From Cloeon dipterum (taxonomy: Eukaryota; Arthropoda; Insecta; Ephemeroptera; Baetidae), in NCBI RefSeq assembly GCF_949628265.1, contig NC_088790.1, positions 5,956,545 to 6,020,544 on the forward strand: DNA of 64,000 nt, written 5' to 3'. A model generated the notes under the pieces. It ran no database searches. It was not told the DNA's origin and saw only the letters and a program-made list of their open reading frames with translations. The position numbers and the translations under genes were made by a program. This document shows positions 19,201-46,330 of this stretch, piece by piece (position 1 is the first letter of the stretch; the number at the start of each line of letters is the position of its first letter).

Positions 19201-20769
19201 TCACTGATGTTGACTTGCTTAACACGTGGATATCCTCGCTTCAACAAAACTAGTCAAATTTAACATCGTTTTGCGCTGTGTTGAAGGAAGTCATCTATGC
19301 ATTAAGGACGAGTGGAAAACAAAATATCAACGCACCATAAGTAGCTGCTACTTGACGCGTAATAACGTAACTATCCCTTACTAGAGAGGCATGGCTTTTC
19401 AGTGATCAATGGAAGCGGCCGCGAAACGAACTATATTATTAAGGAGGATTGATACTGGAAAATCCTTGTTTCCAATACATGATCTCATCCCACAGGATTC
19501 AGTTGAAGCCAAAATTGACCTTATTAGCACTGTACATTTTTTAGAGAAGTGGCTGCAAGCATTCAGTTCAGGTCAGATAGTTTTTATTTTCTTTAAGTCG
19601 AAATTTACAATGGTGACTTATTAAAATACGTCAAACTAAACCTAATACAGCTAATAATTATACATATACTTTATATCATTATCCTAAAGCAAAATCACAG
19701 ACATAATAATCGGAAAGGTCGTAAAATTTGAGTTGCATCACTATTCTCTTTACGGTACTGTATGATATTTAGAAATAATTGGTCATCTTGTTACTTGTTA
19801 TCATTTGATTTCAGTCGGCAGGGCGTTGAATAGTCTAGGGATCATGACTGTTGGGCTTTGGGTCGACATAAATATATGTAGAGAATGCGGCGCAACATAG
19901 AGATCATAAGGGCTAATGTGTTTGACTGCGTTACGCGTATTATTTACCATTATTTACATACATGGTAAAGAATATTGCCCTTGAAATCTGATTTTATTTT
20001 AAAACACGAGTTTTAAAAGTGTGAATAGATCTTGACAAGAGAAATCGGAATACACCAAGAAAATGTGGTCAAACGCTGTAAATTTTGGAGAAAATTGCAA
20101 TGCTTGACTACATTTTCTTGGCAGATTTCGATGCCTCTCGTTGAGATCTGTCCAACAATGAATGAAACCTTTTAGGGAAAGTCTTTGTTGTGAAAAAAAG
20201 GATTTAAAATAATAATCAAAACGGTCCCCACCATTATTTGAATAGCTTGCTAACTTTGCAGCTACTTTTCTAAAAATAATTGACTGTGCTACTTACAATT
20301 AGGTAAATTTTGGCTTCAACTGAATCCTAAGGGATGCGTCCATTATGCATTGGCAACAAGTATTTTCCAGTATCAACCCTCTTATTATTAAGTCAGCAAC
20401 ATCAATAAGGAACATCTCTCATTCAACCATGGCGCAAGTGAAGTAATAAGAATAATTATATTGTTATTAGGAATCTAGCTATCACAGTCAGGGGATTTCA
20501 GCATGACATAATAATTATGATGATTAACAGCGCACCTGTTCTGGATTAGACACCATCATGTGAGTTTCAAAGAAAGCCTTAGGGATCTTGTTCCTGAGGC
20601 ATTTAACAACAGGGTGCCCAAATGTGAGATTGGGCACAAAGTGTCCGTCCATCACATCAAGATGCAAATAGTCGGCTCCAAAGTCCAGGAGTCTCTGAGA
20701 TTCATCGCACAACTGAGCCAAATCAGCATTCAGAATAGACGGCCCAATCATAGGTTTCAGGCAAGACAT
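16243..20769 (-). CDS. Rpe: Ribulose-phosphate 3-epimerase
   Basis: Interconverts ribulose-5-phosphate and xylulose-5-phosphate in the non-oxidative pentose phosphate pathway; cytosolic (beta/alpha)8 barrel with a metal ion. Exons on the minus strand: 20769-20536, 17163-17056, 16633-16412, 16356-16243; 225 residues (human 228). Motifs in order: [13 protein letters not shown] (catalytic Asp region), [16 protein letters not shown] (metal-binding His and catalytic Asp), [48 protein letters not shown] and [12 protein letters not shown] (phosphate-binding loop). The start at 20769 lies 6 bp after an acceptor-like TTTCCCAG, so I prefer it to the in-frame ATG at 20790. Intron 1 is 3.4 kb, unusually long for this neighbourhood, and holds repeats. 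Confidence 0.95.
19436..20391. repeat. Inverted pair of transposon-derived fragments in RPE intron 1
   Basis: Positions 19436-19527 and 20301-20391 are two copies of the same roughly 92-bp sequence in opposite orientation. They share GTTGATACTGGAAAA-like and GGATTCAGTTGAAGCCAAAATT blocks (about 80% identical by eye). The left copy sits in an open frame (19409-19624) that translates like coding sequence ([18 protein letters not shown]). The right copy has a one-base shift and a stop in that frame. Between them, on the minus strand at about 19800-19905, is a fragment reading [18 protein letters not shown] and then a stop, reminiscent of non-LTR retrotransposon C-termini. This looks like decayed transposon material; the family is not identified. 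Confidence 0.5.
20041..20129 (+). repeat. Near-perfect 89-nt hairpin in RPE intron 1
   Basis: The two arms pair across a 4-nt loop (GGAG near 20089-20092). CCAAGAAAATGTGGTCAA (20055-20072) pairs with TTGACTACATTTTCTTGG (20104-20121) with a single G-U wobble. AAATTTT pairs with AAAATT near the loop, and GAAATC (20041) with GATTTC (20124-20129) closes the base. A small internal bulge lies near the base and wobbles lie near the loop. Size and pairing resemble an animal pre-miRNA, but it lies among transposon debris, so a short MITE is equally possible. The strand is undetermined. Confidence 0.55.
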
Positions 20770-20789
20770 TTTCCTGGGAAATACATACA

Positions 20790-23776
20790 TATTTTAAAAT
20801 TTAGTTTTCTGCTTTAAAGTATGAACCTATGTATTACTATTATGAATTTAACCACTAGACCCATAAACAGGCTCCAGAAATCCGGTATAGTATGTTAAGG
20901 TGGTTAAGGTGAAGAATACAATACAACTACATTATAATTATAATCAATTATTCCTGCTTATAATTAAATACCCGAGTTTACTTTAGTCTCACCTATTTCA
21001 ACAATTTTCCCGTCAGATTGACTAATTAAAGTAAATGGTGCGCGGGGTTGTGGTCTGGTTTAATATTATTCTCTTTGTTGTTGTTTCTGCTAAGTAGGCG
21101 GAGTCTAGTAATGGAAGAGAGTGGGGATACATCGTGTACCACGCGTGGCCTTAATAGTTAAAAAGATGTGGAGCTAAAACCGGTAAACTGAGCAACCCAT
21201 TCGCAACGCAGCTGCAATTCATGAGTCAAATGCAAGAGGAGAGTATGGTTTTGGGTAATTTGTGGAAATGTAAGTTTGAAAAATATTTTGGAAGGTGAAA
21301 TTTTGTTTTCAGACTCTTGAAGACTTGAGCAGTCGTGCCATAACACAAGAGTTGATGCGGTTAAATCGGTTTTGTATTTCCCCTCCTTTGACAAAAAATC
21401 GTTTTGATTTATGTTTATTTCACAGAAGGAAAGGATCCGCAGACACGCCACATTCTGTGAGTCCTGGAGACACGCCTCCCGGCCTGCGTTTGCTTCGTTT
21501 GCTTGCTCATTCACCGTCACTACTTTAACACAAAAGGGCGTCTCCGTCATAGCACATGGTGGTATGCAGCTCTAAGAACGTGGCGGCCTATCCAGTCCTT
21601 CGTCCTGCAAGCTCATTCCATGGGTGATGTTGCAACAGCGCAATTCAGGCCATGTGACTATGAGCAGAGAGAACGTGATAGCATTGCCTCGAGTTAGCAC
21701 TGTTCGCAGGGAAGTTGCTCGTACCTTGCTCGGCTTGCCACTTCCCAGGGGAAGCGTCGTTCTTAAGGGTACGCGGCAGCGTGTTAGGTACCAGGTCCAC
21801 GAGGCATAGTTAGGGGGCCCCGTACACGTGCTCACCTAGGACACGGAAGGACGGGTGGCAAATTATATTGGGCCCCCACAAAGCAATATCGGGGCCCCCT
21901 TTCGCTGCAGCAACTCAAGTGCCGGAGCGGGAGTAAACTCGCAAAACGTGCTTTTACGGAGAAACCCTATGTGCGCGTTCTATGTCGGCTAGCCGCGCAT
22001 CGACAACGGCGCGAGGCGTTCGGCACGACAATGGTCGGCGCTCGAAGAGGTTGGTTTTCTTGTGGAAATGCTTTTCGGCAAACTGAATTATTTTTTGTTC
22101 TTTTTTTTCGCAGCTACGAGAGACGGCAGCATGCAAGCCCGTACCCACCTTATGCAGTGACGTCACTCTTTGCTCTGATTGGCCGAATCGACTCGACAGC
22201 ATGGAGCCGTTGTAAACACGTAAGTAGGCCGATTCGCTCAGCCAACCTGCCGACTCGCTCTGCGGCCGTGCTTATATTTGTCTAAGTGATCCGCGTGCGG
22301 CGGGGCGTTGTTCCGAGCTAATGTCGCTCTCTGTCGGCGCTGTTTTCGTCCGCCGACGCTGACCCCGCGATTGATTGCATCCCCCCTCTCCCAGGATGAG
22401 GTGAGGCAGCGTGTAGCTTTGCAGACAATATCCCAAGGTGGACGGGTCTGACTGAGCGAGGTGGCCTGTTAGGCACGCTGAGCGCGTGATGCTTTCGCCT
22501 CCCCCTAGCTCTGCACCCTCTCGACTCAACAAAATATATTTATTTTATATACATTTCCAAAAATTAATCTTAATAGTTACAAATCGTGCTATTTCAATCA
22601 TTTTGTATATCCGGTCGGTTTGACGTTTCGACCGGGAACGTCCGAAAGCCCAGCTTGTAATGGGCCGCCGTCGACTCGCCGATTGATTTTCTGCTGCCCC
22701 CGGCTGCCAGAGAGCACGCTGGCAGGAGACCGCATGGCTTGTGCAGCAGCCAATGAGTGCGCTGAGAGTTGTGACGATTTTTGCCTCGACCAATGGCAGC
22801 AGCTGCGTGCTTAGAATCCCGGGCAAAACAGAGACGATGCTTCCACCATGCTTGCCTCTGGAGTCAGTCGGCACGTCGATTACGGCCCCTCGCTGTGACG
22901 CTCTCCCTCCAAATTGATGGGACGCGGATTATTATGGTCGGCGGGCTTCTTTAAACCTCCGACTAGTGCGTTGTGATGAAACAATCGGAAAAAATGAATT
23001 ATTAAAGCTTGATGAAATAAAAAAATCCTAGAGCATTAATAAAGTAGTAATTAATTTTATATAATGAAATTGAGAGTTTAACTTAATTCTAATTAAGAAT
23101 GATTCAATATCTAACAAGCAAAAATTTTCCTGACTCAGGGTTAAGGGTGAATTCGCAAGAGGCGCCTACCCTAAATTTGGAACAGGTCGATTGATATTAG
23201 AATGCGGCTGCGTGGAGAGAGACTGGAACGGGGTGCGCGCAGCGTGGAAAGCTTTGGGGCAGTCGGTGCCTTTTTGCTACTCCCGGCCGGCGGAGCAGCT
23301 TTTCGCTCCTTTTCTGCTCTCTCAATGTGAGTTGGATGGAGCCCTTTCCTGCGTCGAGCCGGCTTTTCTCACTGAGACCCCTTTCACTTTTTATGTTCCT
23401 CACAACACACTCTCGACTTCGGCGTTCTACGCCTCAGCAGGAGCATTCGCGTGTGCTTGTACAGATTGATTTTCGCTGCCTACCTTTTACTAAACATCAA
23501 GATGAACTCGCGGGAACCAGCCGTTTGCATGATATTAATCCAACTGAAAATGTTCGCAAGCTGTATTGATTTGCAACTTGAACGTGTGAAGAGGTAGATT
23601 GTCAAAATTAAATTAGGTGATAAATCTAAAGCGTTTTTATAAACTCGTGGTCTTATCAGCATGTTCCCCCCATATTTTTCCCGAACGAGTGTTGTGACGA
23701 ATCAAATAATTTTTATTTTTCAGGGCGAGGAAACAAAAGGTGCACTTTTGTTGAGTGGAACGGTGCTGGAGGCGCC
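20790..23776. promoter_or_regulatory. RPE/Mnt divergent upstream region with CpG-rich promoter-like block
   Basis: No coding exon is supported. From about 21900 to 23500 the sequence is GC- and CpG-rich, unlike its flanks. It holds a perfect cAMP-response palindrome TGACGTCA (22158-22165) with a CCAAT-type ATTGG 13 bp beyond (22178-22182), an E-box CACGTG at 21825-21830, and another CCAAT-like CCAATGG near 22790. A strong acceptor (TTATTTTTCAG) lies about 50 bp before the first Mnt coding exon, so the Mnt leader exon and promoter should be in this block. Confidence 0.5.
22158..22182. promoter_or_regulatory. CRE palindrome plus CCAAT-type site upstream of Mnt
   Basis: TGACGTCA followed closely by ATTGG inside the CpG-rich block. 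The spacing and setting are those of a TATA-less housekeeping promoter. The binding factor (ATF/CREB and NF-Y classes) is inferred from the motifs alone. Confidence 0.45.
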
Positions 23777-26700
23777 ATGAATCTGGAAATCCTAATTAAA
23801 GCCACTGAATATGTAGAGTATCAAACTGAGGCGAAAAAAAGAGGTAAGCCAAATAAATTTTTCACCACAAATAGAAATAGCTAGTTAAAACGAAACACTT
23901 GTGTTTCGTTAGAAATAAGTTTGTCGCGGGCTTTAATGCGCTGTCCATTAGTTTGTTGAAATGATAACAATAATATTATTACCGAAAAACTCATCTTCCG
24001 TCACTAAGGTGGAGATTAAGTATATAAGATCCCCACTATGGCTGGGTGGTTATTGCGCCGGCTCAATTCGCGCTTGACAACATGACCCTACCGTGCTGTC
24101 GCTGCCTGCTCACGAGCGAATTAATTCGTTTTGCAGCGCAATAACTAAGATCAGTATAAAAAACCAAGCATTATGATATGTCCTTTGGGCTGTTGGCAAC
24201 AACAGAAAATTGCGTTTGGCTAGCATGATTACAGAACCACCGCATGAACCTCTTTTCCCGGTTTGTCTGAATCGTTAACCGTAGTTGTGACGTCAGCTTG
24301 TCGCGCACATGGCACGCTAAGGAGGCGTGGTTTAGGCTGCCACGTGGATGTCTGCGAGCAGGCTCTGGCCGCGGCCCCTCCCGATCTGCGCTCGCTCGAC
24401 CTGTGTATTTTTTTTAATCCTCCTCGTGCTGCGCCCTACGTCGCCAGCATGCGGTCGGTGTTGTGAACCCTTTTAATAATTAAAAATTGGACATTTTTTT
24501 CCAGGGAGTACGGGATTATTTTCAGTAAACAATTCTACTGGTCTTATGGGGATGATTTTATTTTATTGTTTCTACCAAGTGATACCTGTTGAAACGGCAT
24601 GGTATTAATCTTGAAAACAATCTATTTAAAGAGCTGACAATTTTTGAACACAAAAAATGAGCTAATAGCCACTTCAGCTGACGACCGTTGAGAATTTTGC
24701 TGTTTCTTGTTGAAAATTTAAGGGAGACTACATAGCAAACGCTCGTGAAAGCATAATTTCGCTTCATGAGTAAGCTAGATGACGTGATTCGAGCCTGAGA
24801 GCTGTTCAGTGCGGCCCACAGAAGTGGCATTACCTTATTAGTGATTATATCAGTTTCGCCCAGCAACAGGATAGAGCTTTGTAATATATGACTCACGTAA
24901 CAACGGGCTTTCGTGCCGGGATAAAGTCTGAAGGCTAGGCACACTAACCGGGGGTCTGCCAAAAAAAAAATAATTTTCTTTTTTAAGTACAGTCGTAATT
25001 AGTTAAAGCCGCAGCTAATTGTTATTTCTTCAGCAATATTCTGTTCGTTTCATGGGGCAAACCTTATATAGACGTCAAAGTAGTGTTTCCATCTGAAAAC
25101 GCGTTGGTAAGATTTCAGAAAAACAGAGTCGCAATATTATTTATGTCCCCGGCCGCTGAATTATTGACTACTTGCTAAACCTCGCTGGTAGTTAAGGCTT
25201 GGTCTCCTAGGTGGCGAGAGCGACAAACGCACGGAGCACAAGGCACCTCACCTCGAGGCCTATCTTGGGTTCTGGGTTCGCGAGCACCGATGATATAACC
25301 AAAGGAGCATTCAGTCCAGTGTTGTTTTCTCGTAAAGAGCTCAAATTATCTTGCAACTGAGATGATCTTGGGACCTTTAAACTGACGACTATCTGCAAAC
25401 AATGGATCTTTGGCCAAAATATTGCTAGCGATACCAGATACCAGAGAATAATACTTTAAATTTGAATCGCGGCATTGCTAAAGCGGGACATTTTCATTCA
25501 TTCCTTCACACTCCACGAAATGCTAAACAGAAGAGAGTCTCTCCCAATATTGAATTGATTTATTTTGAAAGGCTGTTGACGTTCGGTCCATTGGCATTCA
25601 AATCTGGCGTCGCAACATTCAAAATTTAAATCTTAAATTTGACTACATCTGCCACTAAATGCAGCTGCTGTCGTATTCATGATGAACATTGTTCAATGTC
25701 GTTGAAAGGCGGCGGTTGCCGGGTTTTGACGTCTCAGACGCAATAAATTCCCTCGCTCATATTGCAGCAGAGAGCTATTTGCATCAAAAGCGAAGGAATC
25801 CGATAGTACTCTCGGATTTCTGCGTGATGCAGGAACAAAGGAAGGCTGTGCCTTGAGAGGGAATAGTGCCTGCCCAATGCCGCTCGGTTATAATAACATT
25901 CTACTTCCTGACCTATGACAAAATGCTGGAATTGTGCGTGCGAGGTAGATCTATTCCGAGGAAAGCATAAAAATCTAAATAATCGAAGATCATGCTCGCG
26001 GGGAGATTGCTCCTAGCGTGCCCGCCAAACAGGTTGACCTTCATTCGAGCCAGCAAGAGAGGGGTTTTGGCAATATTTGCGCTCCAGCCAGTTGGGTGCA
26101 AAACATCGGATTCGCGAGCTACTTTGATATTTTCACAGGCCGCTTGTCGGACCTCGAGCACATTTTGATATAAAAAACAAGTTACGTGCTGCGCGAACTC
26201 GTAAAAATCGATCACGCGTGGTGCAGAAAAAAACAAACGGTCAATCGCGGTGTTTGGATTCAGACAAAGGTGTCGATCACGTGTGCACCAGTCGTTTACA
26301 AAACGGTTAGTGCAGAATATGAAAAGGACGGCGTGTTTCTCAAGAGCGGGTGCATCTCGCGTTGTCCTTGGGTTAATCAGCGCAAACGAGGTTCCATTGG
26401 CCGACGAGTCACATGGCGCTGCAATCCGGCGTCTGGTTGGTTGTTGCTCCACATGGTCTACCTCAATGTGACCTCAAAGTCACATGCACGCCGCACCGCA
26501 ACAACGCTCGCCCATTATTACTTTCAGTGTCCTGTTGGCAAACTCGCCGGCGCCGCTCATTGGCTTTCGGGCTTCATGTCCGCCGCGTTGCTGCTTCTAT
26601 CGCTGCCGATGAGCGAAATGCGTGCGCGGCAGGTGACGCAGCGCGCCAGTTAACTCCCTTTCCTGTTTGTCCATCGACCTTGCTGAATGCCGAACCCACC

Positions 26701-29700
26701 CTGCAGGAATTCACAAATCCGCAGGGGCATCAAATCGAACAATAGTCAATTCTGAATATTAGCTTGGCCGGAATAAATAAAGTCTGCTAGAACTTATCAT
26801 TGTCATGCTGGAATACATTGGATAAGATTGAACCAGTTGATTCTTTTGATTTTTAATGACATTTTGCAAAGCAATGATATGACCTGCAAAATAATATTAG
26901 GATTTTGATTTCTCCACTGTTTTTAGTTTATTTTAAAACGATTTTTTGCGTTGAGAAATGCATTTTTAATACTTTTACCATCTGTTTAAATCTTTGACAG
27001 CCTTTCATCTTCGATTTTGCCTAATTTTCTACTCCCACATCTCCCTCCATCTCTAGCAAACTATTAATTATTAAATCAAATCAATTTTTTGTATTAATTA
27101 ATGGGAAAACGGATCTGGAAAAAATCTGCGCACTGCGTTTGCGAATGCTCTTTGATGTCAACACATTACTTTATCTTAGAGAGTAATCCAATCAATTACA
27201 TAAGCGAGAAAACAGCACGACTCAATTATATATGCTCAATGAAACTTTGCTTCAATGTTGCTCTATGCATATTGTACTTTATTGTAATTGCCCATCAAAG
27301 AAACTGGCTACCTTTGCTCCAAGGGCAAAGGCATGAGTTTGCAAAGCTAGGAAACGTCGCGAATTCACCTTTACTGCTAATTGTGAATAACAGTCACCTT
27401 TTGAATATCTATGATCACAACTTGATTTTTCAAGGCGCAGTAAAATTGATGAAAACAACTGAATTGAGATCACACTAACACGTCTGTACTTTCGCTTGGA
27501 AATTCCATCAAGGTGTTATCAGGGAATTCCTTCGACTGGTCGAGTGAATGACCTTCCGTCAGACCCTAGAACGGCTTTTAAGCCAGATCGCTGGTAATAT
27601 TTCTCTCAAATATGACGTTTTTATGAAGTGTTGCAGCGCGAAATGTTAATCTCGTCACCCCTTAATATCTGTTTCAACTTTCGCGAGCTCGCGGCGTGAA
27701 CACACAACCTCTGCTCCCGACGACGGAAATAACTTTTCACAAACTTTGCGGCCGTAACTCAACTGCGGGGCGGTGGTGTGTTCTCGCTTGCTCGTCGTGA
27801 TGTTGCAACCGGCGTGAAGAGACACACACACCGGGTCACGTGACCCCCGTCTCTGTTGTGGTGCTGCATTTGCGTCCGCGGTAGCCATTATTTATCATTA
27901 GCCAAGTACACCAGGCCGCGTGCTGCATTAAACACATACACGCTGCTAAGTTTGATCGAAAAGTGCCTTCCAAACGCAACCTTGACTTGACTTTGCTCTC
28001 GCTCTCGGTCTGTACGGCCTGCAGCATTTACTTGTTGCGGATTTGCGCGTGCTCTCTTTATGTTTGCTCGCGAGCTGTTCACCTCGGCTCCCGCGGGCCA
28101 CCCTACGGCTGCCGGGAATTGGCAGAAAAAAGTGCGCGCGGAGCACTCGGAATGCGTCTTCAGCCAGATCAAATGGGTGGGTCGGCGGAGCGAGAAAGAG
28201 AAAAAAGCGAGTCGCTGGATTACGATCATCACACACACTCGCGCACATACGGCCGAGCAGATTGGAATGCCGATTTATTACCCACTAGTGAGTGAATGTG
28301 CGCGCACGTATAAAAGGATAAATAAAAAGGCAGTCAAGGAGGAACTCGCCCTGCTGCGAACACAGCCGGCGATGCACAATGCGTTGTTAAAGTTGATTGG
28401 CGAACGCATTAATTATCCTATTGTTTGCCATTAACTGATTTTTACGAGCTGAAAGCTGCTGCAGCCAGCCAGCCAGCGTCGGGCTGTTGGCTTCGGCCAA
28501 TTTTATTAGTGCAGTTGCAGCAGCGTGCGTCGAATTTCGCTGTGGGTGCGGGCGTGAAACGACGCCAGTTGCAACATTGTTAAGCGGCGACCTTGCACAA
28601 AAAGCGCCGCGTCTCGTTATACTCGGCGTGTAGTTGTGGTAGGTCCTCCTCAGCCCGTTCACCGCATGCACCAGCGCGGTGACGCAAACGTTAGCTTTTC
28701 TTCAACTGACAAGGAGCTAGCTGGCTGACTGCAAGGCGCTACATCACACAGCTTTATGTTGCGTGCCTCTCTCGGCCTCCTCGGCTGATATTGGATATCA
28801 CACATCACGCGCCGTGATATGCGCTGCGAGCCGTTATGAAATAATGAAAACGCATTGTGCTGATCAAGGCTCGCAGTTATGCAGGCTGCAATCATCAGAC
28901 TCTATTAATGCAGCGTTTTATTGACGAGTCACTATGATTAATTCGCACTTGAGAGTGTATTTGCAAGTTGCCGTTGCATATTCTGAAACGCACTTTGTAC
29001 CAGACCGGGAGGAGGGTAGGCGTGAAATCTTGATAGAAATCGCAAAGCTTCACTGAAGGAGAATGTTTCCCTTGAGAAAAGACTAATTTGCCTGGGAAAC
29101 TGGTAATGAGTACAAAATTCTCGGTGGACTATGGAAAAATTATCTTTTTGGTGTGGCGAAACTAGCAAAGCCGCTGAGAGAGCAAAATGCAAACTATGAA
29201 CTTTTGTGCAACTCGGTAGACTGAAAGAAAAAATAAATTTGCTAGCGGTGCTGATATGATATATTTCATACTGCAACTCCGTCTGTCCTGCGCATTTTTA
29301 ACCTGCCGCGTGCCTTACTCAACATTTCGGACCATATTGTCTGCTGCGAAGCAAAGCACGCTGGCTCGTTTTCCATTTAAGTATTTATTCACTGCCGTGT
29401 GCCAAGATAAAAAGTAAATAAGTTTTGTTGTCGAGAACGAGGAGGAAAGCTGGCGCGGAAACTCGGGGGGAGTGAAGGGGGTGGAATAAGCGAGCACCAA
29501 CTGCAAGAAGTGTAATCTCGCCATAGCTGTTGCGCAAGCATCGTGCACACAGACGTGCCGTAAAGCGTGCATGCCATTTATTAGATCGGGGAAGCGCGAG
29601 CGAGCGAGCGAGGTTTCAAAACAGCAGTCAGTTTTCACCGAGTATGTACAGTACAGCCGGGTTGTTCGCTCGACGGACGCTGCTGCGAGTAGGTGTGCTT

Positions 29701-32700
29701 ATGCTATGCTGCTGGTGCACTCGCTCGCCGCCGCCGCCGCCGAGTGCATGACCTACGCCAAGGCCCTTGAACAGGACGCATATTGAGCAATTGTGCTCAC
29801 TCGCAGGATCAAAAGCACACGCAGCCTGCACACCGCGTGATCAATATTCCGCTCGCTCTAGCCCAACTATTACGCCCGAGGGCGCAGATGAGCACGATCC
29901 ACTTTGGAAAAAATGAAAAAGTCAGGCAACCGGCGGTCCGGCGCACCAGCTGAATTTCGCAACGCACCACCACCACGACTGCCGCCGTCACCGGATACAG
30001 AAACCGTTCGCAGGGGATGTTTCGCAAGCGCCGTCTCGCTCATAAAAAGAGGGATCCGGGCAGAAAATAATTGTCTGTTCCAAAGCACATTTCCGCGCGC
30101 TTCTCGCAGCCGCAGCCTTGGCTTTAAGGTTTTTTTTTAATGGAAGACGAGTTCTTTCTCCTTCTTTGTCGTGAGCATCGGAATTAATTGGCATGGCGGC
30201 GATCGAGCGATGCTTCTAATGAAGTGCCGAGCCAGCCAGCCAGGAACAATAAGAAAGGTTTCACGACCTATCCCAAGGTTGCTTGCACTTGGCTATGCAG
30301 CCGCGCGCACGGAACCTCTCCTTTGCTAACTCAGCTAGTCGCGCGAACATGCACGACTGCACAATAATATTGCACCTGACGGGGGCCCTGAAAGCCTCTT
30401 TGCGGTTATTCCGTTTTTCTCTTACTTTTACTGCAAGCAGCTATCCGATAATTGTTTGATTGCTCCAAAGCAAATTATCTCATTTCTCTCGCTGCCTCCG
30501 CGGGCGAACCACGTGGTTAAATCGCTCACATGGCGAACTCTGCCTTTCTTTCTCCTCTTCTTATTTTATTGGAAATTGCGTGGACGGTGGTGTCGACCTG
30601 CAAAGCTTGACGGGTTGCGCTCGTCTTTGCCGGGCTTCCTTTTGGGGGTGACGTGCTGATAATCGCCCTGTTACAAACACATTCACGCAGCACGCATAAT
30701 GCCGCCGCGGGGATAATTTTAGCGCTGACTTCTAACTGCCCTTCAGCGGAGTGAACGTCCACGTGCGAAAACAGGACGGAACTCGTCCAGCACGAAATCG
30801 CATATTCGATTCCCATCGCGGGTCTGACCCCCCGTGCGCATATTGAAAGTGTTTGTTTAGCCGCGGTGTTGAAGAGTCTGTTGTTTTGCCCGCAATGTTT
30901 TTTAATTCAACATCATGTGTTGGTGTGTGAACTCTTGGAAAACGTGAATAAGATTTCAACAAGTGCGCCGTGCCATTTGCAACTGTTTCAAATACTGTTA
31001 AAATTGGAGTGCCACAGCGTTTGAGGGGATGGGACAGTCACGTCCGCCACGGTGTCCATTTGGCGGAGATGAACTTCCTTCTCCTGCGCCATATATATAG
31101 CACAAGCAGCACCAGCGCAGACCGAGTGTTGTTGTATAACAACCTGCGTGGGCGGTGGGGAGCGGGCTCATTGTGAGTTGCACCGAACACGATTCTCTGC
31201 GAGCACGTGGCCGCTTGCATTGCCACCCCTTTCGCACCCGTGAAAGAATGGCCATGGACTGGCTTTTAAAAAATAAAATAGAACACCTAATTGACTATTC
31301 GAGCGGCCAACGTGTGCCTGCAGGATGCGAATACACATTGTGGCCTCGTCAGCGATATTTCATTTGATGCGGTGTAAACCAGACAGATGACACTTTTGAA
31401 AAGTTAAAAACTGCATGTGATTTAAAAGTAATTGCTATTGAAGCAAATTTAATCCATTTGGTAGAACCATATTTAATAAATTTTACACTTATTATTCTGA
31501 TATATAATTTAATTAAAATGGAATTGATGAATTTTTTTTCGTCACTTTTATAGGAAAAAATTATTTTAGTGTATTTATTTACGTGGAGCTGCATAAAGGG
31601 CGGATTAAACTGTTCCTATCATATTGCTCAAATTATATACCTCAAGAATGCGCTTCTCAAAATATTTTATACCTGCAGTAAACACGCCCCGCTCCTTTGT
31701 TCGTTACAACGGTATAAAACACGCACGTGACATAATGAAACACCCCTTTTGTAACCCACCTGAACTCCTTTTAGTAGACTTTTAGTTGGTAAACAAGCAT
31801 TTCAGGCAAGTGCGTCGACTAGTCATTTCCACTCATTTGCTCAATAAAGACTGACGGTTTTTCAATGGATGAAATTGATCAATTTCATTCATAGCTGAAT
31901 CAAAGAACTTCCTTTTTTTCAAAGTCACAAAAATACGTCAATTGAAGTGCTTCTTTAATTATCGATTGAATTTTGTTTCATCACGTGGCATCGAGGGTCT
32001 TTTTAAAACCTCGGAGGGCATTGGCCTGTTACAGCTAGGCCGAATACATCCCCGTAAGACTCACGTGCCACTTCCACAACTCTCACGATTTGCCCAACTT
32101 GAAAATCAGCACGAGCGCTTTATTCGCATAATGGAGCCATCAGCCTTTCCATATAATCGGCGAATGAATTATGCAAGCGTACCGGACCAGCGCGATTTGC
32201 AAAAACAAATCGCAGTCTCCGCCCCGTGTCGGTTGCGATATTTCTGATAAAAATCACGTGCAACGGCGTGCGCCTCTGAATTCTTAGAATATAATGTGTC
32301 TTGGATTTAAAAGACGTGGGCCGGTTGCATGTTAAAAATCGGGGCCTGCTCGAAATTAGAATAAACGTAAGGTCACCTGGTGAAGTCGCGTGACTCAAAA
32401 GAGAAACTTTTTTGGCGATTCCCCTTTTGTACCGATTAGCACATCAGGTGATAACATTATCAGCTTATAATACACAATCATCAGATCTCGTGATGAAATC
32501 ACGATTTGGACAACGTGTCGCTCGGCATGTCGTGGAGACTCCTCCTTAGCGGGGTTGCAACGGTTCAACTCTTGACAATGAGAGCAATTTGTTTAACTTC
32601 CCTTTTGCAGGGTCGAGCGCGTTTAGCCTTGATTCGCACAATTCGGCTGACTTGCAAATTCGCTCTCACGCCGAATTTCCTGTACAAGATTCACGTGCTT

Positions 32701-34846
32701 CTCTTGCAAATCGCATTCAAGTTTGACCGGCCGACTGTTGCCAAATCACGCGAATGAATATTCCAGCGCAGAGTGGAAATCATTTAATCACTAGCGATCG
32801 TGAAAGTTTGCTGCCGAGCATCGTTTTCATAAGATTTGCTCGTCATTCTGTTTCTTCGCTTAGTCGCCTGATTTGAGGGAGTCAAATAAAAATAGCCAAA
32901 AGACTATTTTAGAACTGCCACAGTCGGAAAATTAGCCTTCCGCTAGCCATAAAAAATGTGAGCAGAACACAACACGAGGTTTAATTGCGAGTAAAAAACG
33001 TGCGGGCAAAGTCTTTTGATAAAGACAATGCAAACAGACCTCAGCCAACGTGCCTGTCTAAAACGATAACCTTTTCTGACAAGAAACGTGTAACTCGGGA
33101 ATTAGGGTGGAAAGGATCTAAGAGATTGTAAAACAACCAGCTAGGCGTATTTTTTATGTTGAGCGTGTAAATAATTATACATGGAAAAAATTACTCCCAT
33201 GATTTAAACAAAAGATTAAAAAGCATAACTAATTTACAAAATAGAGCAGTTGTTCATGCCCCTATATTAATGTACTTTGTTAATTTGATCTTTCTTTCTG
33301 AAAAAGAGCCTCATTTTCTCACTAAACTGTCAACGAAATTTTGGCTGCACTGAAGGAAGAAGAGGCGATCTACGAAGCAAAAATCACAGATGTCGGGAAA
33401 TGCAAGCTTGCTGCCTGCTAAGCAGATTCGCATCCGCTTAATAGAATTTTTGAAAATATAGCAATATTTCATTACCCAAAACACAAAAGATTTGTAGTTT
33501 TCTGCTTCTTCTCTCTATTTTTTTATGGTGAGAAGTAAAAGTTTCTCGTAATCTTGGTTTCAAATGCATATTTATTTGTAAAGTGATGCTAATTAGGAAT
33601 GCATATTTGTTGAAGCGAAAAGAACCAGCATGGACGGCAGTGAACTCTGAACTCTTTTGATTTGAATACACTCGACCTGCAGTGCGTTAAACTTGACCAC
33701 GTGAAAATTGAAATAAAACGAATGCCATCAACATAATATCATTAGGGTTCAAATGACCAGAGGGGCACGTGACCTGCACTTGGTTCATTGCAGGTCACAC
33801 AATTACCGCTACACCTTACCTGCTGTCACTGGCCATGTTATTTGTCACTATTTTCACGTTGTAAAAATGACACGCGTAAATTAGCGTGATTTCTCTTAAT
33901 TAAGGGATTATATGGATTCAAAACAATAAAATTGCAAACTGATCTGCAAAACGTTGAATTATCTCGAGAAGTTGCCTATCGCGCTTCATAGGAGGGTTTA
34001 TGCAACTGCATTTTGCACGCACCGAGGGCCGCAATCGCTGACGCAGTTTCTGCTCATGATGCTGCTCTTGTCCTTTGACGTCACTTTCTTTCCGCAATTT
34101 TTTTACTTAAGTAAAAAGCGCACAATTCCTTTCGGCGCTTTTTAAAAGTTCGAAAGGTTTTTAAACATTTAGAAAAAAGAGGCAGAGAATTTTGGACATT
34201 TGATGACGAAGCCCAAAAATTGGGCAGTTCTAGACGCTATGGAAATTGGGCCGTACATTGTGTGAGTGAGTGTGCTTGCTTGGACCGGGAGAAGGGGAAC
34301 GGATGAAGAGGGGCACCCCGCGCCGAGCTGTTCTTTAGCGCACACGCTGCTCGACGGCTGTTAGTCAGTCTGTGGTTGTCGCGGAAAAGCCTCGTCGTTT
34401 CTGTGATATCGCAATGCTTTTTTAGTCTGTGATTCGCCCAGATTGTTTTTGTTCCTCGGCCATGATGGGCGTTCTGCTCGAGAACGAGCAGGCCTGGATC
34501 CCTCCACCTAAAAAGAAGTGGATCCGGCACTACTTCCTTAGTAAGTTGGTTGGTTCGCCTCTGCCAGACCCGGAATCATTTCCATCCCTATTAATAATTC
34601 TGTCCACTCTATTTTTAATCTTTTTGATGGCGAATCACACACGTCATTTCAGAATAATTGAAATTCGAGTTCTAATTTCTCGGCGCGTGAACTAAAAGTG
34701 ATGGCCGCGCGCGTTTGCGCGCAAATTGCGAGATTACGTGCACATGCACGAGTGTTCAGTACATAGCACATGAAACAGGTACAAGCGAGAGTAAGTGCCT
34801 GTTATTCGTATGTACTCGCGCAATTACTATGTATATTCGCAGATGC

Positions 34847-34884
<38 letters not shown>

Positions 34885-37590
34885 CGTATTTACACGCGCG
34901 TCTTGATCAGAGCGACGCGTGTCCGTGCCAAATTTTGCAGGTGTTCCGGAGGTATATAAACGAGCAAACTGTTTCGCAAGACTGTGTCTTTGGATTATTT
35001 GATACAACCTTTTCGCACCGAATGAACATTTCAGCTGACTGTCATGTTATCGACCACAATATTTTCAACGCGCCTAATAAAGACTAATTGAAGCGTTGTT
35101 GGCATTCTAAAAATAAAATAAAATCCGTGAATTTGCACCAATGATGCGAGCGGGTGCGAGCTAAAGAAGCCAGAGAGTTATGAGCCTTGGCCTCCTCGGT
35201 TTTCTTCCCTCGTGCTTGTCACACGCACTCTGCCATTCAAAAATAGCGTCTAGTTGCGTAACGCAAACCGATTTTAATTTTTTTTCCCTATTTCAACATT
35301 CACACAGACGCATCGATCACTGACGCATTTGAAAGGACAAAACAGCTCGCTGTTGCCGCTATTGATTTCCGTGGAGCCAAAATAAAAAGCGGCGCGCAAC
35401 AGGCTCAAAATAAACTAAGCAATTATCAGCTCCCTATTAATATTTTAAGTTGTGACCGACAACAGCTGTAAACATTTCAAATAATGAACAGTTTTGTTAT
35501 TGAAAGTAACATGAAGTACTTGAATGACGTCTTTCCCAATGAAAAATCGAAAATGTCCAGGGAGGATGTTATGAAAAATTGTCCAAACAAAATTGGGTTG
35601 TACCTGATGAGTTACGTCAACGACCAGAAAATTTTTAATCATTTCAAACATGCATAAAAGATGTTTCGGTTTTGGAGCCTATTAATATTCGGCCTTCACA
35701 GATTGATTTAATCCCTCCATATTTTCTCTAGTTCTACAGGGTTGAATTTGGATTTTGTTTGCTTACAGGTGAGGTTCCAAAAGACTTTGTGACATATTCA
35801 GCACTGCAAAACCCTGGCACGCCACCGGCCTCTCCACCAAGGGTGCCATTGCCTCCCCCGGCGCCGCCTACCAGCACGCCAGTACATGCGCCCAAGGTAA
35901 ACGGGGTGGGGGGCTCGCCATCAGGGGGCAAGGTGCCACCCCCGACGAGCCCTCCATACTACCAGCCTCCTGAAAACTCATACCTTGCGGCAAGGCTCAC
36001 CGCCCCCACGCCAGCCTCCAATGGGGGCAGTGCGTCGTCGTCACCCGCCTCAGAAGGTTTTGTCAAGGTTAAGAATATATCGATGACGCTGCCAACGACT
36101 ACGCCTATCTCTTCTCCTTCGGCGCACATTCCCTCAGGTGGGGTGCCTAGCTCACCCTCCAGCGTAAACGGAAACATTTCTCCCCAAGAACTCAAGAAAA
36201 GAGCTGGGTAAGTGTTTTTGTCTTGATTAAAGGGGATCTTTATTTTTTCATTTGTTTCATATTTTTCATTTATGATGAACAAACTGAAATGCTCGAATCT
36301 TATATTTTTGTTAATTTATTTTGATTAAATACATGCTTAATTTTGTTTGTTTTGACTCGACAACTTGATGGTCGGCATGAGTGTCTGTTTCTAAGAATGT
36401 TCTCTTGTCTAACCAGTGCGGGTACACGCGAAGTGCACAACAAGCTCGAAAAGAACCGCCGGGCGCACCTAAAAGAGTGCTTTGAGATGTTGAGGCGACA
36501 ACTGCCCCCGTGCGGCCACGATGACAAAAAGCCGTCCAACCTCACCGTTCTCCATTCCGCCATCAGATACATACAGGTGAGATTCGTGTTTGTTCCCCAA
36601 AAGTGAGCAAATAACAGCGAATCCGAAAACCACGCGGCTTGCGCATCGTTGAGAGAGTAGAGAACGCTGATTCGGGCGTGCCTCTGTAAACGAGATTTTG
36701 TTTGTGGGCCGTCTGATAAGGAGGAATCTGTTGTCGTCTGAGTGAGCACGTGTCACCGCGGGTGACGTCACCAGCCTTGGGTGAGCACGTGGACTGGCGG
36801 AGTTGCGAGATGGAGGTGCTGTTTATTTAGGTTCTGGGATCTCCAATCCGGCGCCCACTCTTCGCCATTTTCCCCTCGCGGCCGAAATAGATGGATCTCG
36901 CTTGCACGCACGCACTCGACTTTTGGCCTAGCGCGGGGTCAAAGTTGCTCTCGCTGCTCATCTGGAGCAATCTGGTTCCACCTGCCTCCCCGCCACCGCG
37001 GCCCTCACGACGAATCAAGGCAGCAGTGTGTCTCTCATCGAGCCAGATATAAATTCGAATTTTATGTCAATTCAATCGTCACTCATTTTATCGCGTCCCG
37101 ATTCCGCCTGTTTGTTTTTCGCTCTGCGAAACTCGCGGGTTTATAATTAGCCATTCGATTCCTTCTCGCTTTCCAAGCTGCAAATGCGCGTGAGATTCGA
37201 AGAATTCGGGGTTGATCGCGTGCAAATAGTGCCGTTGGTCGTTGTTGCCGCCGCGCTGCCACTTCATTCTTGGCTCGTCTTCAGCAGCGCGTGGACAAAT
37301 AAGAAAGTGGTGGCCGCGCCGAATATATCAGATTGCGGTTAGGTGTTCGGTCTGTACGTCCCCCGGAAGAGGCAGATCCACCAGCGTTTTTCCAGCGGTC
37401 TGCTCGCCGCAAAGCGTTCACGCTCGGTGCTAATTTCGGCCATTCGGTGCTCGCGCCCCATTAGCGCGCGGCCTGATAATCACGGCGCAAACAAAATTTT
37501 GCAACGCCAGCCGAGCAGGCTGCCGAGCGAGCGAGCGAATGTTTTGGCTTCGCCGCGAAAAGCAGCAGCGTCCGCCCATCTTTCTCCGCG

Positions 37591-37630
<40 letters not shown>

Positions 37631-40600
37631 AAGTCGAATGTGCGCGTTGGGCGACTGAAAAAAAGATGCTAAAATATTCGCAAGTGAGGCCACTCTCGGT
37701 TGGAAATAGCCGGCAAATTTATTTGCGTGGTACTTGAAGGTCAACTTGAAGGGACGCCGCCTGATTCGAGCTGAACTCGACGCACGATTTCCAACATACA
37801 CACAAAACACACACTCACACACAGCCCGTTATCTTATCGCGGCGCGGATTGGGCTAACAATAAATTTATCTCCGCGGCTCAGGCCAGACACGCTTTTTGC
37901 GAGGCTGACATTGAATGACCTTGAAGCGGCCCGTCGACACTGATTGCCTCGTCGGTCCGCCCATCCTGGCCCAAATTGCAGAGGGAAAATCGCCAGATTG
38001 CTAATTTTGCGCGTTGCAGTGCGGGGGGGTTAGCAGGTCGAAACGAGCGCGCACGGCCTTTACGGCGTACGCGGTCAATAGAATTCGAGCGTGGCTGTAC
38101 GTGTGCCTGTTATTTTACAAGTGGACACGCAGCACACGTTGGCCGTGCCAATGTCGGGCGAGAGCGACGGCGGCGGCCAACGAGAGAGCGAGCGAGCCAG
38201 CCAGCCTGCGAGTTTGAGTGGCGGTGCAGACGACAGCCGAGGGGAACATAATATGGAGCGTGCGAGGCCTCGTGTACCGAAAGCACGTGGTCGCACTCTG
38301 GGTCCTCCTCCCACGGACCAGAGGCGGAGGCAGCGGCGGCTCGGCATCAGCATCGCCAGCCTCGCTATTTTAAAAAGCACTTCGCTCGCGCTGCCTGTGC
38401 TTTTGACACGCCAATTTGCGCCTCTCGCGATCGGTCGGCCGCCACCTTGACTCGCCGCCGAGGAGGCCAGGCCAGCAGCAATCCCTCCGCCGACCTCTGA
38501 CTTTTCGACCGTCCTTTGTTTTTCGCCTCACACTTTCTCGATGGCCGGGCGCGGAATGTCACTCAGTACTCGCAACGCTTTGATGCGAGCAAAGTGGGAA
38601 TCGATCACGAGACTGCCCTTACACTCTGTCAGTGCAGAGATAAGGATTTACGCAATTCGCGATCTGGATATCTGTGACACAGCTCGACGTTCGCACTTTC
38701 TAGATTCGACGACGCACTCACTATTCTTTTGAGCACTAATAAACCAAAATAAAGCGTTGAAACCGTAAAAATATTATTTTATGACTGGCATTCAAGCTAA
38801 CTGAAGCGATTTTCTTGTTGACAGACGTTGAGAAGAAAAGAGCGTGACTTTGAGCACGAGATGGAGCGTCTAGCTCGCGAAAAAATCTCCTTCCAGCAGA
38901 GGCTCTCGTCCTTGAAGAAAGAAATCAGTTCTCAGTGCGACTCCGTGGACTTTTCGAACCTTCTGCCCGACGTACCTGCGCAGGCTCTCAAGTCGTCTCA
39001 GGTGCACATGGGTGGATCGCTGTCAAAACCACTGCCCTTTGACTCTGATGACGATTTCGAATTTGACGAAGAGGATGAAACAATGCAGAAGCCGCCATCT
39101 CCGCAACACTCGGCTTCGACGTCGACTGCCTCCGGTAAGACAGGTACCACCCCCTTCCTTTAAATTTTGCTTGCTCGCCACTCGAGGGTATCAACACACC
39201 CTTTGGACGTAGCCCCTCCTCGACTAACAACAAACTTGGTTCATAACTCGCCTTCTCTGTTTGTAAATCTCGAAAATGGCATGCAGCTCTCTGTGTAATT
39301 GGATTTGAAACTAACTTGCTATGCCGACGTCTTGACATTGCCCCTTTCTAACCCCCCGTCCTCCCCGGCTTTTGGTGTGTTTTCGCGCTGTGTCACATGC
39401 AGCAATGCGCTGACGAGCGAAATTAATCTCCTTGCAGAGCGTGGCCACTTGAGCGACGTGGAGGACTTATCGGGGGGCAACTCGCGGCCAGGGTCTTCCC
39501 GCGACGGGGGCTGTTCTCCCACGATGCCCGTCGCGGCCCCAGCGACCAACCCCAACGCGCTGCGGCCCTCGGCGGTCGTGGAGCACCCCGGCCGCAGCAG
39601 CAACATCGGCGAAGTGTTGCGGGAGGTGGTGCGGAAGCCCTCGTCACCGCGCACCGAGCCTGCGCCGTCGCCGCAAAACCTAGGCACAAAACTGAGCATC
39701 CAGCCGCAGCCGGCCCCCATCCAGCTGACGCAGGTGTCCAACAAGGTGAGACATACCTGGAATTGCGCCAATCCAACCAGTGCAGACGTTTGGCTTTTTG
39801 CAGCATGTCGGCGAGCACATTTCGCGACAGTCGCACGTGCAACTCGTGCCGACTTCGCACGGTTTTGCCGGTTCTGGACCAACTCTCGTCGCGCCTACTG
39901 CGATCCAGTTAGTAGCAGCCCCCAGTGGCCTGAGAATGCTCGCCACCGCGCCTCATCCAGACCAACGGTCACAAGGTCAGTACATCGCCTTTAAGCTGTT
40001 AATAATCTGTATGTAAATCTGATTAACACATCACATTTGATTTCAGTGAGCAGAGATGATGTGTCGAAAGTGAAGATGAGCACCTTCATCACCACCACTG
40101 AGTCCTCCCGGCTACCTGGTGGTGCGGAAATCAACGTCATCTCCAGCTCCGCCTCGCAGAATGTGCCGGTCGTGCGAGGAAACATGCCAGGCAAACCCAT
40201 CAACCTGTCTGCTAACGCCAGCGCATCGTTGCTGTCCACCACCTCGGCTCCCCCCATTCTCAACGGGAGCGTCATCAGCCACGGCTCCGCTCTTCACAGA
40301 CAAACACTGCCACAAGGTGAGCTGTTTTACTAACAGCGTTCAATTGTTTGTACTAACTTGCCATGGTATGTTGCAGGACAAAATAACACGACAGTGCTCT
40401 CTTCTGGTGCCACCGCTCCGCTAACCCACACAGTAACCCACCATCTTGCACCTGGCCAAGGCAAGGATGAAATTTATTACACTCGCCACTCATTGTCATC
40501 ATCAAAACGAAGTTAGAGGAAATTTATGACTGGTCAATATCTTTTTGCTTTTCATATCAGGTATCGCGCATGTCGTGGCCGCATCTGGACAGAGTCACAT

Positions 40601-44216: not shown

Positions 44217-45624
44217 TCAGCAACAGCTTTTCACCCAAGCAGTGTAAAACTCTAATTTCTTGATAGTGACCATCAGCTGTTTCTTGGTCCATTTTGACTC
44301 TCTTCCCGAGGCCAGGAAACGCTTGCTGAACTCCCCATTACTCGATTTGCCTACAACTTGTCTAGTTAGAATGAAGATATTTAAGAATAATTTATTTAAC
44401 TACCGTTTCCTTTTTTGGTTGCTTTTGAAAGGACATTAATACAGTCAGACAACGCGCATAGCAAGTAGTATGAGACCTCGTCTGTGCTTGGTCCTTCCAT
44501 TATTTTGCTGAAGTCATCCAAAGCCAAATCAAGGTCATCTTGAGCTGACTCCAGAATCTGCAAATAATTTAATTAGAGATGATTATCCGTGCAAAAAGTG
44601 TCTTCAAACCTCTGTTGCTTGCATTTTCACTGAAGTGACTGCACTTTCACCATCAGCGAAATTTTCCCCTTTTCCTAAACTCAAACTCAAATCCATCAAA
44701 CAGTCAGCAGCTTCGGAAACCAGGTCAGGCTCCAAATGGTCGCCTTGGAAATGCCTTGCAACAATCACATACGCCATCACGGCGTTTGAGATTCCATATT
44801 TTACTCCTGGGTTAACTTTCTAGAAAGGAACGTGTATGAAGGATGATATTTCAGAAAAAAAAACTTGTCACTTACTGCAATATCTTTAAGGAGAGGGATT
44901 TTTGTACTAATTTGTGGACACTTCTTCTTGTAATCGTCAGAGTCAGTGACTTCCTGCACTAACGGTTGCCTGAAGGCAAAATGTGTGTTGTTGTTGTTTT
45001 AGGAAACATAATATCAAGTTTTAATACCTGTGCATCCACCATGGCTCCCACGCTGGCACAATTTGGCTAGCATCACCTGACGCAATGATGCTCTGAAACT
45101 CAGCTTTTTCTTCTGCCGAAAGCTTTTGCCACACAAGCTCTGGATTATTCAAATCAATTCCTGCCAATCTTGCCGCAAGATCTTCTGATTCTGAGGCCAA
45201 GTCATCCGAATCTCCCTCGCTTTCCTCGCCATCATCTTCTCCATCCTCGAGGAAGCCACCATCAACTCCAAGCTTATCTGCTTCTTGAAGGCGCGTCAAA
45301 ATTTTTTGCACTGACCTAAGGTTAAAATTTTTATAACTTAATAAAGCAAAATTAATGAATCATACTTGGCGTCATCTGGATTCGGGGCATCCACTGCCAT
45401 TTCTTCTTGGATGCATTCTTTGTAAAACTGCTCTGAGCAATTTGCATGTTTTGCGCTTCTGTAGCAATCTAAACTACAGTAATAAACGTTGCAACGCGGA
45501 CATACATATTTTCCCTGCACTGCGCCACACCTGAAATTGAAGGAAAAATTAAATGAAGCCAAGATTGATGGTTGGAATCTTACAAAAAGCATAAGTTGTC
45601 CAAGTTGTCGGAGGAACTGCTCAT
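44217..45624 (-). CDS. Znhit2: Zinc finger HIT domain-containing protein 2
   Basis: Assembly factor working with the R2TP/RUVBL chaperone on snRNP (U5) biogenesis. Exons on the minus strand: 45624-45584, 45530-45366, 45315-45028, 44969-44876, 44819-44610, 44557-44404, 44350-44217; 361 residues. The HIT zinc finger is at the very N-terminus and split by the first intron: LCFLCGAVQGKYVCPRCNVY, then YCSLDCYRSAKHANCSEQFY, supplying the Cys and His ligands. Exon 3 carries an acidic run and then EEKAEFQSIIASGDASQIVP followed by AWEPWW, the signature of ZNHIT2 as opposed to other HIT proteins. The C-terminal half is helical. Head to head with EARS2 across a 0.7 kb gap; convergent with Mnt. Confidence 0.93.
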
Positions 45625-46330
45625 CTTTTCTTGATTGCTGGGTAAAAAAAATAATAACAGGCTTATTAATATGTGACGTTTTTGTACTTGAATACTATTT
45701 TTGACACAATCTTGAACTAACAAGAGATGAAAATAATAGCCAGAAGAATTAATAAGACACTAAAGCTTGATGCTCGATCCGGCTCGAACTTACCAACTTA
45801 TAGTTGCTTGGGTTGCTTGTTGTTTTGTTTGTCTTGTCCGTCTTGTCTCTTGTCTTGTGTCTGTTTATAAATAATACCAGCTGATTTGATAGGTTGATTT
45901 CAGTTCATCACGTGGTTAAAAGTTATTTTCGACCAAATGGCGCGAAAAATGTACATCAACCATCAACCTTCTGAATAGGCCACCGGCAACCCACCTATTT
46001 TTAACTGTTAATAAGTTCTATGATGCAAAAGATTTAGAATAATTCATAAGCCCATAAGTTCCATGCCATTTATTTCCAATTAACAAACTCATTAGTATAT
46101 TTATTTAAATATTGTGCGATTAGGTTGACAATATTTTAAAAAAGTGGGCGGGGCGAAGTGTTCTTGCTGGGTATCTTCCCCGATCTTCCCACAGTTCCTC
46201 CTCCCTGCTCCATCAGCTTGTTATTGTTATTTTGTTTTTGCTATTGTCTTGTCCTTTTTTATGAAGAAAAATTGTGTGGGATTGTATATCTACCGAGTAA
46301 AATCATCCTTGAAAGCTCAAATTTCTCAAA
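45625..46330. promoter_or_regulatory. Shared upstream region of ZNHIT2 and EARS2
   Basis: About 700 bp between divergent start codons, AT-rich, with an E-box CACGTG near 45910 and a CTTGTCTTGTC-like repeat near 45835-45860. A plus-strand open frame from 46144 overlaps the EARS2 start in another frame and is judged spurious. Confidence 0.5.

Follow-up and report, generated by a model that had tools for sequence, protein, structure and literature searches.

A Mnt-type gene of Cloeon dipterum with two candidate alternative N-terminal coding exons, one with and one without a Sin3-interaction domain

Results

Two N-terminal coding exons of a Mnt-type gene

We analyzed a 64,000-nucleotide stretch of Cloeon dipterum DNA (contig NC_088790.1, positions 5,956,545 to 6,020,544; hereafter the window), which belongs to an animal genome of 190 Mb in ten contigs. 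The window contains a complete Mnt-type gene on the + strand, which we reconstructed by following its splice sites and the reading frame. Nine shared coding exons (35769–43086) encode a full basic helix-loop-helix (bHLH)-zipper protein, and either of two upstream coding exons can be joined to them. One of these encodes a Sin3-interaction domain (SID) and gives an open frame of 705 amino acids (isoform A, Mnt-A), whereas the other, exon 1b, lacks a SID and gives an open frame of 709 amino acids (isoform B, Mnt-B). The initial annotation had proposed both exons, and they were recovered where it had placed them: 23777–23843 (67 nucleotides, MNLEILIKATEYVEYQTEAKKR) and 34462–34540 (79 nucleotides, MMGVLLENEQAWIPPPKKKWIRHYFL). 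Each ends in phase 1 and can be joined to exon 2 (35769) with the frame open across the junction, reading GEVPKDFV or SEVPKDFV.

The upstream exon was said to encode an amphipathic SID-like helix, and the alignment supports a SID of the Mad1/Mnt kind. The segment MNLEILIKATEYVE, present in isoform A only, was aligned without gaps with MNIQMLLEAADYLE of Mad1 (PDB 1pd7_B) and scored 42 (BLOSUM62), a value reached by 2 of 5000 shuffled sequences. Among the 718 ATG-started open 22-mers of the window this peptide was the best match to the Mad1 SID, and the runner-up scored 28. Leu12, Ala15 and Ala16 of Mad1 are described as critical for binding to PAH2 (PMC6295471, a review); the equivalents of Leu12 and Ala15 are retained in the SID exon. 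The hydrophobic moment of the peptide was not distinctive (0.33, reached by 25% of shuffles, compared with 12% for the Mad1 SID) and was not used as evidence.

The SID exon extends upstream of its start codon to 23724 (23724–23843, + strand; 5' untranslated region 23724–23776, donor GAG/gtaagc). The acceptor at 23724, tttttatttttcag/GGCG, is strong, with a score of 8.1 that is matched by 55 of the 3520 AG dinucleotides in the window, and 23777 is the first ATG downstream of it. On both counts the SID exon, which had been taken for a first exon, probably lies inside a longer transcript, more likely as its second exon than as its first.

Exon 1b has coding-like codon usage

The ATG of exon 1b (34462–34540, + strand) has a G at -3 and an in-frame stop 36 nucleotides upstream, and the exon ends in phase 1 at the donor TTA/gtaagt. 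A score of synonymous codon usage was trained on 48 domain stretches of the same genome (3977 codons), which remained from 62 loci after 14 kinase loci with in-frame stops had been dropped. Exon 1b scored +11.1 bits, compared with a mean of 9.1 for 237 overlapping coding pieces, and only 8 of 7201 stop-free 26-codon intron windows (overlapping, both strands) reached its score. In the same frame the 12 codons ahead of the ATG scored -4.2, the exon itself +11.1, and the sequence past the donor -9.9 and -12.7. The left edge of this signal is less sharp than the right, because windows beginning one to three codons ahead of the ATG still scored 11.6–12.9. These results argue that exon 1b is truly coding. 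A low score is no proof against an exon, since the SID exon (-10.0) and exon 2 (-12.0) were both negative.

We also counted candidates for such an exon, defined by an ATG with a purine at -3, a GTRAGY donor, phase 1 and a length of 20–60 codons. The 11.9 kb intron contained one candidate besides exon 1b, with a strongly non-coding score of -17.5. Introns simulated with an order-3 Markov model held some candidate in 24.7% of cases, and none of 400 held one equal to exon 1b.

The peptide of exon 1b carries no usable SID

The second exon had been described as coding for an unrelated N-terminus of the PPPKKKW type, and this description holds. The N-terminus of Mnt-B, WIPPPKKKWIRHY, is basic and aromatic, with two Trp residues, KKK and IRHY. 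It shares just VLLE/MLLE with the SID, a likeness that scores 14 and is reached by 2002 of 5000 shuffles. This alignment keeps the Leu12 position but has Asn and Glu in place of Ala15 and Ala16 and, beyond four further residues, three prolines. An acidic residue at Ala16 (A16D) reportedly inactivates the Mad1 SID. Because the critical alanines are lost, prolines follow, and deletion of the SID is reported to convert MNT into a transcriptional activator (PMC8465425, a review), Mnt-B is likely to be at least non-repressing. The same report of SID-deleted MNT as an activator raises the possibility that Mnt-B may activate rather than merely compete.

We searched the genome for the expected partners. 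Three PAH matches were found at one locus, together with the sequences DFSHAINYVNKIK and DKYKSFLDILHAY, which we take to be helices 1 and 2 of PAH2. These matches indicate that a docking partner of the Sin3 type exists in the genome, and binding of the Mnt-A SID to it is predicted. A bHLH gene that we label Max-like is also present. From the biology of the family, Mnt-B should occupy E-boxes with Max and without Sin3.

Start of exon 1b

The exon at 34462 had been proposed as a first exon, and the search for acceptors agreed with this only in part. No strong acceptor was found in 34000–34462, where the best site scored 3.1 (34149), compared with 8.1 for the SID exon, and 34426 scored -4.0. Ninety-seven nucleotides upstream of the ATG lies TCAGTC (34365–34370, + strand), the sole match of this kind in 33900–34462. 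We presume it to be an arthropod-type initiator and, as a pattern match only, a candidate transcription start of exon 1b. The 27 AGs in 34000–34462 were also tried as acceptors after the SID exon. Twenty-six of them led to a stop, and 34442 alone stayed in frame. The 34442 site, which scores 2.8 (466 of 3520 AGs in the window as high), speaks against a first exon, as its use gives an in-frame 99-nucleotide cassette exon (34442–34540) that keeps the SID. The nine accepted acceptors of the gene score 1.1–9.0, and weak acceptors such as 34442 cannot be dismissed because three of the nine score only 1.1–1.2. Taken together, exon 1b is likely a first exon.

The wider proposal of a promoter-driven switch fared similarly. 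The lack of a strong acceptor, the TCAGTC site and the E-box cluster upstream of it are in its favour, but the 34442 acceptor would keep the SID, and the SID exon is probably internal. On the present sequence evidence a promoter switch between the two N-termini is plausible. The GC-rich block in which exon 1b was said to sit proved not to be special: GC is 0.55 in 34250–34499, but 10 of 46 250-base tiles of the intron reach at least 0.53, and five of those other than this block reach at least 0.55.

The presumed leader of exon 1b also contains a minimal upstream open reading frame of three codons (Met-Leu-Phe-stop, 34414–34425, + strand), which is possibly a translational brake.

A cluster of E-boxes upstream of exon 1b

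The E-box CACGTG occurs 22 times in the window, compared with 7.8 expected, and 10 of the 22 lie within 3.26 kb of the first intron (30510–33771, no strand assigned). The cluster stops 0.6 kb short of exon 1b's candidate start. Its density is 3.07 per kb, 15 times that of the genome (0.20 per kb; 38,116 in 190.1 Mb). An order-2 Markov model predicts 1.78 CACGTG in 30400–33900, where it is the most over-represented of the 64 palindromic hexamers, and none of 500 simulated introns reached 13 CACGTG in all or 10 in 3.3 kb. The reverse-read control GTGCAC occurred 0 times in the cluster (1.72 expected) and 4 times in the intron (4.71 expected). Repeats or a tandem array do not account for the cluster, and the flanks of the sites differ.

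The largest CACGTG count among 62 other loci of the genome (about 3.1 kb or more each) was 5, and among the first 100 matches listed for contig 1 at most 6 fell in any 3.26 kb. When a negative-binomial distribution was fitted to the 62 loci, roughly one window like this was predicted genome-wide; such a cluster is therefore rare without being impossible. The cluster showed no enrichment of CACGCG (2 on one strand and 1 on the other, compared with 1.10 and 1.31 expected), the site that MNT-MAX is reported to prefer (PMC8465425). The cluster was found post hoc, and CACGTG is a site that other bHLH proteins also use. Its position just upstream of exon 1b suggests that the second start could be under Max-network control, and the Max network may thus control the SID-less form of Mnt.

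Shared exons and assignment to the Mnt family

Exon 2 (35769–36207) is rich in proline and serine, exon 3 (36417–36576) encodes the bHLH, and exon 4 (38825–39134) encodes the leucine zipper and an acidic stretch. They are followed by exon 5 (39438–39745), exon 6 (39804–39975), exon 7 (40047–40316), exon 8 (40377–40460, donor CCAAG/gcaagg), exon 9 (40561–40691) and the last coding exon (42910–43086), which ends with TAA at 43084–43086; all lie on the + strand. The sole Pfam match of the protein is HLH (5.1e-15 for the whole protein), and the best solved relatives over the bHLH-zipper are Max (1e-9) and Mad (2.5e-9) in PDB. The libraries searched thus give only HLH, Max and Mad, and the name Mnt rests on family membership together with architecture: a SID, a long proline-rich region in exon 2, the bHLH-zipper and a long C-terminus, in 705 amino acids. 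Human MNT has 582 amino acids and likewise a proline-rich region (PMC8465425).

The intron after exon 8 is of the GC-AG type, and the nine other donors of the gene, including those of the SID exon and exon 1b, are GT. Past the donor of exon 9, which ends at 40691, the frame remains open for 149 codons (40692–41141) and would add a tail rich in Asn, His, Tyr and Pro. None of 4000 simulated sequences stayed open as long, yet in synonymous codon usage this stretch departs strongly from the genes used for training (-115 bits). Retention of this intron could give Mnt an alternative C-terminus.

Neighbouring genes and base composition

A ribulose-phosphate 3-epimerase gene (Pfam PF00834, 2.9e-21), whose first part lies on the - strand at 20524–20793, is arranged head-to-head with Mnt, and the upstream Mnt start may therefore share a bidirectional promoter region. 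Downstream of Mnt and on the opposite strand, a HIT zinc finger (PF04438, 2.6e-9) was found at 45338–45694. The observed/expected ratio of CpG over 24000–43000 is mostly about 1 or above in the 5' part of Mnt and 0.45–0.71 over 40.25–42.75 kb, a profile that resembles CpG loss by gene-body methylation sparing the 5' regulatory part. Rfam gave no match in the window at the gathering threshold.

Discussion

We favour, with moderate confidence, a Mnt gene whose two N-terminal coding exons are used as alternatives and which has an internal second start; the SID-less product of that start, Mnt-B, would be under Max-network control. Transcription from an upstream start would splice a non-coding exon into the SID exon (23724–23843) and yield Mnt-A, which would pair with Max and recruit Sin3 through PAH2. 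A second start near 34365, inside the 11.9 kb intron, would yield Mnt-B by way of exon 1b. Mnt-B would carry the same bHLH-zipper and C-terminus behind an unrelated N-terminus predicted to be unable to dock in PAH2. With Max on the same E-boxes, it would compete with Mnt-A and Myc, or activate as SID-deleted MNT is reported to do. Max-network dimers at the E-box cluster would control the second start, thus closing a feedback loop.

Several observations, beside the 34442 acceptor, weigh against this explanation. In the SID exon Thr replaces the critical Ala16, and a PDB search with the peptide of this exon alone did not have Mad1 among its matches; the best was a 21-residue Max chain (E 0.13), presumably helix 2 of Max. 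The donor of exon 1b scores 2.7, compared with 5.0–10.5 for eight other donors of the gene, and its exon side is TTA, not AG. An earlier score that included amino-acid content gave exon 1b only +1.0 bits; it was set aside because its training sequence was this gene's own proline-rich body. The criteria applied to exon 1b were fixed after the exon was known. The 1b peptide has no second copy in its own genome, where a search returned only itself at E up to 10, and the DNA pattern for PPKKKW occurs once in the 190 Mb. Prokaryote genomes and viral contigs gave no confirmed relatives of the peptide, a negative that was expected. Finally, Myc was not identified in the genome: a c-Myc fragment matched the Max-like gene best, and the best Myc_N match (E 0.337) fell below the cut-off. 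Arthropod Myc is divergent, and this failure is therefore no evidence of absence.

The alternative that survives best concerns the E-boxes. The cluster might be an intronic enhancer for another bHLH factor, such as MITF/TFE, USF, Clock/Cycle or Mondo/Mlx, or might serve the SID promoter, without relation to exon 1b. We regard this as a serious possibility, if somewhat short of an even chance. CACGTG is common to many bHLH proteins, the flanks of the ten sites vary, and 60 HLH matches were listed in the genome. However, the cluster adjoins exon 1b, whereas the 2.8 kb upstream of the SID exon contain one CACGTG, and an E-box reportedly mediates repression of the MNT promoter by MNT itself (PMC8465425).

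A less probable alternative, which we hold only tentatively, accepts exon 1b as a first exon and assigns its N-terminus an added function, such as nuclear import through PPPKKKW or binding of another cofactor, so that Mnt-B would still be a repressor or would have separate targets. The unusual composition of the peptide (two Trp, KKK and IRHY) and its coding-like codon usage are compatible with this, and the proline-rich N-terminal domain of human MXI1-0 is reported to be responsible for cytoplasmic localisation (PMC8984142). However, the 1b peptide matched no Pfam family and, among solved structures, only chemokine chains (E 0.72 or worse). The string PPPKKKW did not occur in the literature searched.

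It is improbable that the open frame at 34462 arose by chance in intron DNA and that the gene has the SID form only. The donor of exon 1b is moderate, with 440 of 3237 GTs in the window as high, and about a quarter of simulated introns hold some ATG that leads to a GTRAGY donor in phase 1. If any GT is allowed as donor, the intron holds 49 candidates, 4 of which reach the amino-acid-dependent score of exon 1b. A chance frame does not readily explain the coding-like synonymous usage within exon 1b and its drop past the donor, which few intron windows and no simulated intron equalled. Slightly less probable still is a cassette exon 34442–34540, divisible by three, that would be spliced in ahead of exon 2 and after the SID exon, so that DCFCSSAMMGVLLENEQAWIPPPKKKWIRHYFLS follows the SID and no SID-less form is made: its acceptor (gattcgcccag) scores within the range of those accepted in Mnt and the joint frame is open, but one in-frame acceptor is fairly often expected by chance when 27 AGs are tried, many AGs of the window score as high, the ATG has a favourable start context and the coding-like usage begins at about that point, and an initiator-like site lies upstream.

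A stronger form of the explanation with an internal second start is a switch that reads its own network. The ten E-boxes within Mnt would set the internal start, and Mnt-B would keep DNA binding, lose Sin3 recruitment and gain an activating or antagonistic N-terminus. We consider this extended form unlikely. N-Myc is said, by the title of a paper in a reference list, to regulate MXI1 isoforms differentially.

Removal of the SID from a Max partner by an alternative first exon is known from MXI1. In human MXI1-0 an alternative first exon replaces the SID exon and the bHLH-zipper is kept (PMC2441969, PMC8984142), as would be the case for Mnt-B. MXI1-0 differs in being a form of MXI1, not MNT, and in that its alternative exon contributes 92 residues, which include a proline-rich domain; in another account that exon encodes a different SID (PMC8984142). 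The 1b peptide is short and unrelated. Mxi1-WR and SID-less MXI1 isoforms of blood cells are also Max partners without a SID (PMC8984142, PMC2441969), but they are mammalian and belong to MXI1. Human and mouse MNT share the N-terminal SID, the proline-rich region, the bHLH-zipper and Max pairing with the gene described here (PMC8465425), whereas the excerpted text of that review mentions no SID-less alternative first exon for MNT. Our literature search found nothing on insect Mnt isoforms together with the SID, and nothing pertinent on an alternative Mnt promoter among the matches listed. Splice forms of Drosophila dMnt without the SID or the zipper may have been described by Loo and colleagues in 2005. 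Pending RNA evidence, what would be new here is that the device occurs in Mnt, that the N-terminal peptide is unrelated and that E-boxes cluster next to its exon.

Vertebrate MXI1 has already supplied examples of Max partners without a SID, some of which came from tumours. If an invertebrate Mnt likewise had a SID-less form selected by promoter, it would follow that this device belongs to the basic growth-control network and is not a quirk of one mammalian paralog. The small size of the network, which in flies has one MXD protein, would allow clean testing of the effect on Myc-type growth control, and the E-box cluster yields a concrete prediction of feedback. Were the self-reading form of the switch also true, a single invertebrate Mnt gene would let the network turn the repressor that belongs to it into an activator or an antagonist.

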